Positions 16,451-22,523 of a stretch of 64,000 nucleotides of DNA are shown here, in pieces. Source of the DNA: Paramicrobacterium humi (GTDB taxonomy: Bacteria; Actinomycetota; Actinomycetes; Actinomycetales; Microbacteriaceae); the NCBI RefSeq assembly GCF_900105715.1, contig NZ_FNRY01000001.1, positions 1,488,001 through 1,552,000 of the forward strand, given 5' to 3'. Numbering within the stretch: the first letter of the stretch is position 1; every line of letters starts with the position of its first letter. The notes under the pieces are model-generated. The model did not search any database. It worked only from the letters and a program-made list of their open reading frames with translations, and had not been told where the DNA came from. A program made the translations under genes and the position numbers.

Positions 16451-17824
16451 CTACGGCTGCGGGTCAAGCGCGTCGTATGCGGCGAACCGCGGGTGCGTGC
16501 GCACGAGCAGCCAGACGAGAATGACGATGAGGATGCCGCCGACAAGCGGCGGCGCCCACAGGGCCGCGAGCGCCGTGAACGCGCCCGCATAGAGGTCGCC
16601 GATGCGCGGGCCGCCCGTGACGACGACGGTGAAGACACCTTGAATGCGGCCGCGCATCGCGTCCGGCGCGGAAGCCTGCAGCAGCGTCATGCGGAAGATC
16701 GAGCTCACGTTGTCGGCGCCGCCCGCGACGACCATGCAGAGGAACGCGAGAATGAGCGCCGGCCAGTTCACGTCCGCCTCGCTCGCGACTCCGCCCGTGA
16801 GCGTCGTCCACAGCAGAACGATCCCGAACCCGAGCGTCGCGAGGGCGAACACCGAGATCGCGTTGCGGATCGCGAGGCCCTGCAGGCGCACACCGCCGAG
16901 CCGGCCCGAGAACACGCTCGTGATGAACGCGCCGATCGCGACGCCCGCGGTCAGCACGCCGACCGTGATCGCGCCGCCGCCGAGAAGCAGTGCGCCGACG
17001 GCGGGGAACAGCGCGCGCGGCTGCCCGAAGGTCATCGCGACGATGTCGACGATGAACGACATGCGGATGTTCGGCGCCGTGCGCAGGAACCGCAGGCCGT
17101 CCACGATCGAGCGCAGCCCCGCCTCGCGGACGTCCCCCTCGGGCTCGAGGTGCGGAAGCGACGCGATGCCCGCGAAGGCGAACGTGAACAGCACGACGTC
17201 GGTCGTGAACGTCCACTGCACGCCCACGCCGGCGACGAGAACACCGGCGAGCGCCGGGCCGACGGTGACCATGACGCCCGCGCTGATTCCCGTGAGAGCG
17301 GATGCCGCCGGCAGCAGCTCGAGCGGGAGCAGCCGCGGCAGAATCGCCTGTCTGGTCGTGCCGAGCACGGTGGCCGCGACGGTGTTGACCGTCATCACGA
17401 GATAGAACGGCCAGGTCACGTCGACGTGCGCCCACGCGAGCGCCGCGAGTCCCGCCGTGGAGATCCACGCGACGATCGCCGCGACGAGAGCGACGGTGCG
17501 CCGGTCGAACGTGTCGGCGAGCATGCCGCCGTACAGGCCGAAGACGAGCATGGGCACGAGCGCGAACAGGGCGACCATCGACACGGCGAACGTCGATTGG
17601 GTCAAGTCGTAGATGTGCAGTCCGACGGCGACGATCGTCATCTGGCTGCCGATGCCCGCGATCGCGTTGCCGCCCCACAGGCGCGCGAACGCCGGGCTCT
17701 GCCGCAATGGCGTCAGGTCGGCGAAGACGCCCGTGCGCGGCGGATCGTGCGGTTGCTCCGGCACGCTCTCGCCGGCCGCTTCGGGCTTCTCGCTCACGGC
17801 ACGATCACCCGGTGACGCTACCAC
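16451..17824 (-). CDS. MFS transporter (EntS/MFS_3-like exporter)
   Basis: A 457-residue, 12-helix inner-membrane protein with a ~35-residue acidic/Pro-rich N tail. FARLWGGNAIAGIGSQMT starts helix 1, and ADTFDRRTVALVA is the inter-helix DRR motif. The layout resembles the enterobactin exporter (EntS) branch that exports siderophores or drugs. GTG 17824 is the longest start; a second GTG about nine codons in is possible. Direction and substrate are inferred from family only. Confidence 0.85.
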   Translation of the reverse strand: MVASPGDRAVSEKPEAAGESVPEQPHDPPRTGVFADLTPLRQSPAFARLWGGNAIAGIGSQMTIVAVGLHIYDLTQSTFAVSMVALFALVPMLVFGLYGGMLADTFDRRTVALVAAIVAWISTAGLAALAWAHVDVTWPFYLVMTVNTVAATVLGTTRQAILPRLLPLELLPAASALTGISAGVMVTVGPALAGVLVAGVGVQWTFTTDVVLFTFAFAGIASLPHLEPEGDVREAGLRSIVDGLRFLRTAPNIRMSFIVDIVAMTFGQPRALFPAVGALLLGGGAITVGVLTAGVAIGAFITSVFSGRLGGVRLQGLAIRNAISVFALATLGFGIVLLWTTLTGGVASEADVNWPALILAFLCMVVAGGADNVSSIFRMTLLQASAPDAMRGRIQGVFTVVVTGGPRIGDLYAGAFTALAALWAPPLVGGILIVILVWLLVRTHPRFAAYDALDPQP

Positions 17825-17908
17825 GCGGCGGGGCAGAGCGGCGGCGTGCCGCGTTCCAGTTCTGCACAGGCGCGCTCGCTATCCTTGAGTGAAGGCTTCG
17901 ACCGAGCC

Positions 17909-17950
17909 TGCGGACGAGGGCGCAGTACCCGCACAGCGACAAGACTGACC
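17909..17950 (+). ncRNA. Guanidine-III riboswitch (ykkC-III)
   Basis: The stretch contains the conserved blocks GGACGAGG (17912-17919), GTACCC (17925-17930) and GACAAGAC (17938-17945) in the order and spacing of the ykkC-III consensus. Stem P1 is TGCGG (17909-17913) with CCGCA (17929-17933). P2 is CAGT (17923-17926) with ACTG (17944-17947), forming the compact pseudoknot. A GGAAAGGTGAG ribosome site follows within about 10 bases, so control is probably translational. The gene behind it is an SMR exporter of the Gdx kind, the known partner of this class; guanidinium would turn expression on. Confidence 0.88.
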
Positions 17951-17968
17951 ACGGAAAGGTGAGTTGTC

Positions 17969-18283
17969 GTGGCCTGGGTCATCCTTATCGCGTCGGGGGT
18001 GCTCGAAGCCGTCTGGGCGAGCGCCCTCGCGGCATCCAACGGGTTCAAGAAGGTCGTCCCCTCGATACTTTTCGTCGTCGCCATGGGCGTGAGCATGGCG
18101 GGGCTCGCGTTCGCGATGACGAGCATCCCGACGGGAACCGCGTACGCCGTGTGGGTCGGCGTCGGCGCCGTGCTCACGGCGGTGTGGGCGATCGTGACAC
18201 GCCGCGAACGCGCGACCGTCACGCGCGTGCTCCTTCTCGCGGGACTCGTCGCCTGCGTCGTCGGTCTCAAGGTGGTGAGCTAG
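17969..18283 (+). CDS. SMR family exporter subunit (guanidinium exporter Gdx-like)
   Basis: A 104-residue, four-helix protein. The essential proton/substrate Glu13 sits in VLEAVWA. GVSMAGLAFAMTSIPTGTAYAVWVGVGAV matches the second-third helix signature of SMR proteins. It starts at GTG 17969, six bases after AAGGTGAG. It is controlled by the guanidine-III riboswitch upstream and runs directly into a second SMR gene with no gap, so the active unit is probably a two-gene heterodimer that exports guanidinium in exchange for protons. Confidence 0.92.
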   Translation: MAWVILIASGVLEAVWASALAASNGFKKVVPSILFVVAMGVSMAGLAFAMTSIPTGTAYAVWVGVGAVLTAVWAIVTRRERATVTRVLLLAGLVACVVGLKVVS

Positions 18284-18652
18284 ATGCACTGGATCGTCCT
18301 CATCGTGAGCGCGGGCTTCGAAGCCGTGTGGGCCACGGCGCTCGGCGCATCGCACGGACTCAGCGAACCCGCGCCCACCGTCGTGTTCGCGCTCGGCCTG
18401 ACGGCGAGCATGGTGGGCCTCGGCGTCGCCATGAAGCGCATCCCCGTGAGCGTCGCGTATGCCGTGTGGACGGGACTCGGAGCGGCGCTGACCGTGAGCT
18501 ACGCCATGCTGTCGGGGCTCGAGCCCGTCTCGGTGCTCAAGGTGCTGTTCCTCGCGGGCATCGTCGGCTGCGTCATCGGCCTCAAGTTCGCGGCGCCCGC
18601 GCCGGGCGAGCGCGCCGAGCCGGACACTCAGCCCGGCGAGACGGCGCCGTAG
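18284..18652 (+). CDS. SMR family exporter, second subunit
   Basis: A 122-residue paralogue of the preceding protein, with Glu13 in GFEAVWATA and VAYAVWTGLGAALTVSY in helix 3, plus a longer hydrophilic C tail (residues ~107-122). ATG 18284 follows the upstream TAG immediately. Paired SMR genes in which the partners differ in loop charge usually form antiparallel heterodimers. The last 25 bases overlap the convergent NAD-binding protein gene. Confidence 0.92.
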   Translation: MHWIVLIVSAGFEAVWATALGASHGLSEPAPTVVFALGLTASMVGLGVAMKRIPVSVAYAVWTGLGAALTVSYAMLSGLEPVSVLKVLFLAGIVGCVIGLKFAAPAPGERAEPDTQPGETAP

Positions 18653-19383
18653 CGCTCGGCGAGGTAGTCCTCGTACGTGCGGGTGCCGTACGGCGGGCCC
18701 GGCACCATGTTGCGCCGCTCCCGCAGCGCGCGATACAGCTTCCCGGGCAGTCGGAACGTCACGACGCGCCCGCGCGATCCGCTCGCCCGTCGCCAGCGCC
18801 TCGCGTACTCCGCGGCGCTCAGCCGCTCGGGCCCGCCGATGTCGGGCACTCGGCCGGCGGCATCCGACGCCGCGAGCTCCGTGAGCCGCGCGGCGACGTC
18901 GAGCGTCGAGATGGACTGGAAGCCGATGCGCGGAACGAACAGCACGGGCAGCCGACGCTGCACGGTGAACAGGCCCGTCACGAGTTCGTGGAACTGGGTG
19001 GCCCGCAGGATCGTGTGCGGCAGCGGCGAGTCCTCGAGCATCCGCTCGACGGCGAGCTTCGTGCGGTAGTAGGGCATGGGGATGCGGTCGACCCCGACGA
19101 TCGACAGGTAGATGAGATGACGGATGCCGGCGCGCTCCGCCGCGCGGAACAGCAGCGCGGACGTCTCCTCGTCACGCGAGAGACCGCTCGTGGCCAAGTG
19201 CAGCACCGTGTCGACGCCCTCGAGCGCCTCGGGAACTCCGACGCCCGACACGAGGTCGCCGAGGGCACGGCCGGCGCCGGGCCTGCGGCTCAGAACCCGC
19301 ACCGCGTGACCCGCGCGGCGCAAGGCGTCGACGGTCGGCACGCCGAGCCGGCCGGTGCCGCCGGTGACGAGGATTTCGGGCAT
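18628..19383 (-). CDS. NAD(P)-binding protein, NmrA/atypical SDR type
   Basis: A 251-residue Rossmann protein. TGGTGRLG lies at residues 7-14, RVLSRRPG contacts NADP (~28-35), and VDTVLHLATSG and HLIYLSIVGVDRIPMPYYRTK hold the atypical active-site Tyr-x-x-x-Lys. ATG 19383 has GGAG six bases upstream; the longer open frame would run through the divergent promoter. Such proteins act as redox sensors or reductases of unknown substrate. It overlaps the SMR gene end by 25 bases. Confidence 0.87.
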   Translation of the reverse strand: MPEILVTGGTGRLGVPTVDALRRAGHAVRVLSRRPGAGRALGDLVSGVGVPEALEGVDTVLHLATSGLSRDEETSALLFRAAERAGIRHLIYLSIVGVDRIPMPYYRTKLAVERMLEDSPLPHTILRATQFHELVTGLFTVQRRLPVLFVPRIGFQSISTLDVAARLTELAASDAAGRVPDIGGPERLSAAEYARRWRRASGSRGRVVTFRLPGKLYRALRERRNMVPGPPYGTRTYEDYLAERYGAVSPG

Positions 19384-21404: not shown

Positions 21405-22523
21405 GGTGTGGTTGTTCAGATCATCACCGTGAAAGGGTTGCGCTTCCTTGGGTGCACATTACCGTCATTTGTGGATTGAAGACCGGGTAGAGATTCAGAA
21501 GCTCCACGAGCAGAAGTACAGCGGCGCTGAAATCGCCCGACGACTCGGAGTGGACCGCTCCACGATCAGTAGGGAGTTGCATCGCGGGTCCTGGCAGCCG
21601 GAGCAGGACCACGCGAACCTGCGCCCGTATCTGCGGAACAAGCTCGACACGAGAGACCCGCATGAACGCCTGTATCTGGCCGGGCAGGCGCAGCTGCAAG
21701 CGGACACGCGTGCGGCGCGGTCGCATCAGCCGTATCGGATGATGTGGGATCGGCTGGTCGACTGGGTCATCAGCCACCTCCGGAAGGGGTGGACCCCGGA
21801 AGAGATCAGCGGCCGGCTCCCGATCGAGTTCCCCCACGAGCCACGTATGCGCACCAGTGTCGAGACGTTATACGCGTGGATCTACCACCCGAACCAGCAG
21901 CACCGGCGGTTGCCGGAGTATCTGCGCCGGGGACAGAAGAAGCGCCGCAAACGACGCGGCAGGCGGGTGCATCAGCAGCGAATCCGGTGGCGGGTCTCGA
22001 TCCATGATCGTCCCGCCGTGATCGAGGACCGGGCCGAGTTCGGACATTGGGAAGCCGACAGCGTCCTCGGACGCGGCACCGGAGGCCTGCACACCAGCGT
22101 CGAACGAACCTCGCGGTATCTGGTCGCGAGGAAGATCCCGGAGATCACCGCTCAGGCCACGCTGGAGGCGCAACTGGGCATGTTCACGGCGATGCCTGCG
22201 CACGCGGCCCGTTCGGTGACGGCCGATAACGGCAGCGAGTTCGCGTCCCACTACCGGCTCGCCGACACGCTCGGGATCCCGACCTATTTCGCGGACCCGT
22301 ACTGCGCATACCAGCGCGGCACGAACGAGCACTTCAACGGCCGGATCCGCGGCTATCTGCCCAAACGCACCAGCTTCGCCGATCTCGACCAAGCCGAACT
22401 CGACGAATACGTCAACGAGATCAACAACCGGCCCCGCAAGATCCTCGGCTGGGCGACACCAGCCGAGGTTTTCCACGAACTATCATCGACCCAGGCCACA
22501 CCCCATTGCACTTCCACTTAGAA
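21376..22523 (+). mobile_element. IS30-family insertion sequence
   Basis: An element of about 1,148 bp. The left end, ATTCTAAACGGAAGCGCAACG, and the right end read on the other strand, TTCTAAGTGGAAGTGCAATG, are imperfect terminal inverted repeats; a second conserved block, GGGTGTGG, follows in both. CCCGG is present on both sides (21371-21375 and 22524-22528) and looks like the target duplication, though the exact outer base is ambiguous. It carries one transposase gene whose stop lies within the right repeat. It sits five codons before the end of the epimerase gene. Confidence 0.88.
21448..22521 (+). CDS. IS30 family transposase
   Basis: A 357-residue DDE transposase. The N-terminal HTH is YSGAEIARRLGVDRSTISREL (~23-44). 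The catalytic core has Asp in HWEADSVLG (~205), Asp in TADNGSEF (~268) and Glu in GTNEHFNGRIRGYLPK (~301), the standard IS30 DDE spacing. The start is TTG 21448, directly after a GTTGCGCTTCC arm that pairs with the left terminal repeat. The frame is intact, so the copy may be active. The length is normal for the family. Confidence 0.95.
   Translation: MGAHYRHLWIEDRVEIQKLHEQKYSGAEIARRLGVDRSTISRELHRGSWQPEQDHANLRPYLRNKLDTRDPHERLYLAGQAQLQADTRAARSHQPYRMMWDRLVDWVISHLRKGWTPEEISGRLPIEFPHEPRMRTSVETLYAWIYHPNQQHRRLPEYLRRGQKKRRKRRGRRVHQQRIRWRVSIHDRPAVIEDRAEFGHWEADSVLGRGTGGLHTSVERTSRYLVARKIPEITAQATLEAQLGMFTAMPAHAARSVTADNGSEFASHYRLADTLGIPTYFADPYCAYQRGTNEHFNGRIRGYLPKRTSFADLDQAELDEYVNEINNRPRKILGWATPAEVFHELSSTQATPHCTST

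Follow-up and report, generated by a model that had tools for sequence, protein, structure and literature searches.

Does the short leader in front of two adjoining SMR genes hold a working guanidine-III riboswitch, and do the two proteins encoded behind it act together as an exporter of guanidinium? The locus lies in a 64-kb stretch of DNA that was analysed as a whole, referred to here as the window; coordinates without a locus name are window positions. We consider it highly probable that a guanidine-III switch turns on translation of the SMR operon and that an antiparallel heterodimer of its products exports guanidinium. This account builds on what was observed at the locus and among its relatives, namely the aptamer match, the gene order, the Gdx residues, the opposite charge bias and conservation.

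The riboswitch element

The RNA features of the leader are listed below, with the basis of each assignment in brackets.

17889–17952 (+): Guanidine-III (ykkC-III) aptamer over the whole length of the Rfam match (cmscan, RF01763)
17894–17908 (+): hairpin that the Rfam model includes upstream of P1, GGCUU/GAGCC, five pairs including one G-U (cmscan alignment; also seen in the fold)
17909–17913 with 17929–17933 (+): P1 pseudoknot helix, 5 bp, UGCGG with CCGCA (read from sequence)
17912–17919 (+): GGACGAGG motif (read from sequence)
17914–17917 (+): ACGA motif (read from sequence)
17923–17926 with 17944–17947 (+): P2, 4 contiguous bp, CAGU with ACUG (sequence and cmscan)
17925–17930 (+): GTACCC motif (read from sequence)
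17938–17945 (+): GACAAGAC strand (read from sequence)
17955–17963 (+): Shine-Dalgarno-like (SD) AAAGGUGAG, for SMR1 (read from sequence)

A cmscan of the 64-kb window against 4227 Rfam families returned Guanidine-III as the sole gathering-level match, at 17889–17952 on the plus strand (E 1.2e-5). The first-pass annotation had proposed this riboswitch from its motifs and regarded a covariance score below the family threshold as refuting it; the score obtained, 43.1 bits, lies above the gathering threshold of 36. The Rfam element begins 20 nt ahead of the start given in that annotation because it includes the upstream hairpin at 17894–17908. A whole-genome search, which scored 150 of its 1409 first-look candidates, reported no second Guanidine-III copy.

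The conserved segments of RF01763, ACGA (GGACGA), GUACC and ACAAGAC, are present in this order between 17912 and 17945, and the consensus-order motifs, the 5-bp P1 and the downstream ribosome site were all found where they had been annotated. The element thus resembles RF01763 in its motifs, its P1/P2 pseudoknot layout, its site just before an SMR gene and its score over the gathering threshold; judged from these sequence features, it is very likely a genuine guanidine-sensing switch. It differs from the family in P2, where the consensus stem has seven pairs and this locus has four contiguous ones. The annotated length of about four pairs agrees with this count, and in the cmscan alignment two pairs of the consensus P2 are marked as non-standard at this locus. 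Passages of PMC2864571 describe ykkC-III as originally reported before emrE and speB genes, in Actinobacteria and delta-Proteobacteria. A simple scan of positions 17780–18760 turned up neither a sigma-70-type promoter nor a terminator.

The short P2 stem

Contiguous P2 pairs were counted in the 50 family loci that match the strict motif. One locus had 3 pairs, 24 had 4, 24 had 5 and one had 7, so that 48 of the 50 carry 4–5 pairs; these P2 counts omit the nine of the 59 family loci without the strict motif, which the gene counts keep. Because the strict motif itself dictates the two innermost pairs of P2 and the first of P1, these cannot fail in the P2 and P1 counts. A P2 of 7 to 10 pairs was present in 21 of the 30 best-scoring class loci. 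The crystal structure of guanidine-III reportedly has a longer P2.

Among 69 distinct sequences with the core length of the window (34 nt), the four inner P2 pairs are formed in all 69, the inner two being fixed by the motif; the fifth pair is formed in 45 and the sixth in none. The short P2 therefore looks like a stable form of the lineage, and the idea of a local defect was rejected on these two sets of counts. In the same 69 sequences, the fourth pair of P1 occurs as C-G (44), G-C (24) or G-U (1), and one P2 pair is A-U in 63 and C-G in 6; such pair changes in P1 and P2 support the predicted structure. Tentatively, the short-P2 form might be a functional guanidine-III subtype with an affinity or switching rate unlike that of the long-P2 form, its short 3' arm doubling as the SD-masking strand, a proposal that we find rather doubtful.

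The SMR gene pair

Two genes follow the leader on the same strand.

17969–18283 (+): SMR1, 104 aa, Gdx-type subunit; GTG start at 17969, stop TAG at 18281–18283; PF00893, E 3.5e-22
18284–18652 (+): SMR2, 122 aa, Gdx-type partner subunit; ATG at 18284; PF00893, E 1.2e-17

As annotated, the genes adjoin without a gap (0 nt), the ATG of SMR2 following directly on the TAG of SMR1. Both products score above the PF00893 gathering threshold of 23.7 bits (SMR1, 79.2 bits; SMR2, 64.6 bits), and 49 of 104 residues are identical between them in an ungapped comparison. No other PF00893 (SMR) genes were found in the genome, which makes this a clean system for asking whether both subunits are needed.

The Gdx residues E13, W16, S42, Y59 and W62 occur in both SMR1 and SMR2. 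Their roles in the Gdx subtype are taken from passages of PMC7695847, according to which W16 is conserved in Gdx and replaced by Gly or Ala in Qac. For both proteins the best-scoring NCBIfam model is named quaternary ammonium efflux SugE, and both fall below the cut-off of the SugE equivalog NF008512 (97.4 and 66.5 bits against 126 bits); they are therefore filed as Gdx-type by their residues and not by the NCBIfam model. The locus thus shares PF00893 and the five residues with Gdx (SugE) exporters and differs from them in having two genes instead of one and in its scores below the equivalog cut-off.

The Arg/Lys bias is −4 for SMR1 and +4 for SMR2; the loop limits behind these values were chosen by eye on the two window proteins, and the same limits served for all loci. 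Passages of the review PMC9574504 give an opposite Arg/Lys bias near +4/−4 for paired (heterodimeric) SMRs and state that about 20% of Gdx are paired. The annotated remark that two-gene Gdx are less studied than single-gene exporters is weakened by this, paired Gdx being known and making up that share. With its adjoining genes and opposite bias the locus resembles the paired SMRs (PSMRs), and no difference from them was found, the heterodimer here being predicted. Opposite bias is a mark of a fixed-orientation heterodimer, and from their sequences the two proteins probably work together, exporting guanidine. The proposed SMR exporter stands on PF00893 in both proteins, the Gdx signature residues and the opposite charge bias, with guanidinium as its putative substrate. 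The locus is a clear further example of a probably heterodimeric Gdx pair preceded by a guanidine-III switch.

The same pattern recurs in the fetched loci, where the charge bias was counted on plus-oriented matches. It was negative then positive in all 90 adjacent SMR pairs scored and 0 in 54 of the 59 singletons scored (the pairs L089 and L091 and the singletons L055, L067, L069 and L090 lie outside the 90 and the 59). PMC9574504 states this same rule for heterodimeric and for dual-topology SMRs. Three of the 90 first subunits (L169–L171) miss at the fixed positions 42, 59 and 62 because of three extra residues; S, Y and W are found at +3. In a tree of 247 SMR proteins, omitting L012, L040 and identical proteins, the first and second genes of pairs fall mostly into two separate groups of 91 rows each, with L151_B and L089_A outside; the tree has few columns and 125 of its 244 inner branches are open, and it was used for this first/second-gene grouping only.

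Distribution of the arrangement

Of 394 class genomes sampled, 168 have a Guanidine-III match over the cut-off, as do 56 of the 120 genomes of the family sample. The class had been annotated as rare; on these counts we reject rarity for this lineage. Judged by its relatives, the genome of the window probably belongs to Microbacteriaceae. In the family, 59 genomes, the window included, have a match with E no higher than 0.001, three of them under the cut-off. The element is followed by an SMR pair in 19 of these 59 loci, by one SMR in 35 (with a shortened gene in L040) and by none in 5. It is also present, and followed by an SMR pair, in the same-genus genomes G394 and G475 (L065 and L064), and pairs under guanidine-III occur in Arthrobacter, Nocardia, Microbacterium and Nocardiopsis as well. 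L062 and L063 are excluded from the counts as repeats of the window; the gene context of class matches covers the 30 best-scoring loci only and is biased to high scores. The switch with an exporter pair behind it is an ordinary, widespread arrangement in this bacterial group.

Two loci stand somewhat apart. The SMR frame that follows the guanidine-III element in L040 (1575–1757, with the locus oriented to put the riboswitch on the plus strand) matches over about 61 residues only and is possibly frameshifted or truncated. In Gordonibacter (Eggerthellaceae; L166:1912–1978), a Guanidine-III-like element scoring 35.2 bits, just under threshold, precedes a single SMR gene.

Proposed switching mechanism

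In the proposed mechanism, rising cellular guanidinium would lead the guanidine-III element in the 5' leader to turn on translation of the two-gene SMR operon. In the ligand-free state the aptamer 3' strand GCGACAAGACUGACC would pair with the SD/start region GGUGAGUUGUCGU and block ribosomes, and in the ligand-bound state this strand would be captured in the P1/P2 pseudoknot, freeing the SD and the GTG. SMR1 and SMR2 would insert in opposite fixed orientations and form an antiparallel heterodimer, which would export guanidinium in exchange for protons. Ligand binding, the fold switch, heterodimer formation and the substrate are the predicted parts of this account. The masking structure is the following.

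17936–17950 with 17958–17970 (+): proposed ligand-free hairpin, GCGACA/ACU/ACC (within 17936–17950) with GGU/AGU/UGUCGU (within 17958–17970); minimum-energy fold, covering SD and start codon

The SD-masking sub-fold has an energy of −14.0 kcal/mol. Compared with shuffled sequences, the whole leader fold gave a z of −0.02, with 97 of 200 shuffles as stable, and the strand pairing at this locus a z of −1.0, with 17 of 100 shuffles as good. Over 110 distinct loci the mean z of the strand pairing was −1.09, and at 31 of the 110 at most 5 of 100 shuffles were as good. Aptamer strands paired with their own SD/start regions at a mean of −10.66 kcal/mol, against −10.21 kcal/mol when swapped, and one in 2000 permutations was as low, a set-wide result that is inflated by the relatedness of the loci. 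This particular hairpin has weak support at the locus itself and modest support over the 110 loci. The element likely acts as an ON switch at the level of translation, its aptamer 3' strand covering the SD and the start codon in the ligand-free state; according to passages of PMC12186494, ligand binding by guanidine-III both releases the SD and makes the mRNA more stable.

Curtobacterium pairs with a TetR/BetI-like gene

Among the best 80 of 530 confirmed SMR1 relatives, a selection whose counts are not frequencies, 18 are Curtobacterium loci (L092–L099, L101–L107, L109, L118 and L124) with identities of 68–73%. A motif search found no guanidine-III motif in any of the 18, and Rfam gave no guanidine-III in the six that were scanned. 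Homologues of one divergent TetR/BetI-like gene (E 1e-5 or better) were found in all 18 and in no other examined loci, in a search of ORFs of at least 100 codons in the fetched flanks, about 0.8–2 kb upstream; the TetR/BetI-like assignment comes from Pfam on L095 only (L095:1328–1930, −). Repeated palindromic TCGCACAGTCGTGCGA-like sites lie upstream in all four loci examined (L095, L099, L105 and L118). From these sequences it looks like RNA control has been replaced by repressor control in Curtobacterium. Because these related pairs are without the motif, guanidine need not be the sole inducer or substrate in the clade. In Microbacterium paraoxydans, an SMR pair without riboswitch motif is accompanied by a divergent ORF (L136:1330–1935, −) that resembles an HTH plus cupin regulator by eye.

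Alternative explanations

Several results count against the main account: the hairpin is unexceptional against shuffles here, relatedness of the loci inflates the set-wide permutation, both proteins score below the SugE equivalog cut-off, the related Curtobacterium pairs are without the riboswitch motif, and the simple scan found no promoter or terminator. The first of them bears on a reading in which the guanidine-III aptamer is real and control runs mainly through mRNA stability instead of SD masking. This reading departs from the main account at the last step only, and both routes could act together. It draws on the weakness of the SD-masking hairpin in the shuffle tests at this locus and on passages of PMC12186494, in which guanidine is reported to protect against RNase E scanning in the case of guanidine-III; the same paper, however, also describes SD release, and here the aptamer is immediately followed by the SD and start codon, to which its core strand pairs in the minimum-energy fold. 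That stability is the main route seems unlikely to us.

The names and scores of the protein models bear on a different question, whether guanidine is only the signal and the pair exports another cation, such as a quaternary ammonium compound. The best NCBIfam model carries the name quaternary ammonium efflux SugE, albeit with scores below cut-off, and the related Curtobacterium pairs adjoin the TetR/BetI-like gene. Both subunits nevertheless hold W16 and the remaining Gdx residues, and passages of PMC12186494 state that riboswitch-linked SMRs assayed elsewhere export guanidinium, which makes another cation an improbable substrate. Less probable still, to a degree that we hardly reckon with it, is a decayed, non-functional relic of a riboswitch with a broken P2. 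The two non-standard consensus P2 pairs would fit such a relic, as would the score of the window, which stands at the end of the class-genome matches listed; against this, the three core motifs are intact, and the 4-bp P2 is common to all 69 sequences of the same core length (inner two pairs motif-fixed), none of which pairs at the sixth position. The guanidine-III switch with its putative guanidinium-exporting heterodimer remains the preferred account.

Other guanidine systems and neighbouring genes

The genome gave no Guanidine-I match; Guanidine-II and -IV were covered in the 64-kb window by the Rfam scan. The urea/guanidine carboxylase model had 15 partial matches in the genome, none over cut-off, one of which spans the central part of the model and contains a stop. 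As this model also matches all 14 control genomes, its result says little on guanidine use. Upstream of the leader, a divergent MFS transporter gene (PF05977/PF07690; 16451–17824, −) has its listed start about 65 nt from the riboswitch, and on the downstream side an IS30 family transposase gene (21448–22521) lies some 2.8 kb past the SMR operon.

A CBU_0592-family protein under guanidine-III

In five of the 59 family loci (L056, L059, L077, L080 and L084), a protein of 82–88 aa takes the place of an SMR gene behind guanidine-III. All four members tested, two of them from family loci, belong to NCBIfam CBU_0592; Pfam gave no match at E 0.1 or better for three of them and a weak one, under cut-off, for the fourth. 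A homologue was found in 16 of 197 class genomes. Guanidine-III lies 5–58 nt before the matched stretch in seven (L180, L182–L185, L187 and L194), five over the gathering score and two just under, and no nearby guanidine-III was found in the other nine; of the seven, L182–L185 share one genus and the frame of L194 holds a stop. This small membrane protein is a candidate guanidine-linked protein, and a search for CBU_0592 in a limited literature subset returned nothing. Its repeated occurrence under guanidine-III and the apparent replacement of riboswitch by repressor in Curtobacterium are leads that may be better than the locus itself.

Three helices are predicted in the structure model for the L059 protein (mean pLDDT 81.2, pTM 0.61; values across the five models run from 81.2 down to 55.7). 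Its top Foldseek match is SemiSWEET (E 0.98) and VIA-align places designed helical bundles above SemiSWEET, so that the model offers only a hint of a SemiSWEET-like fold.
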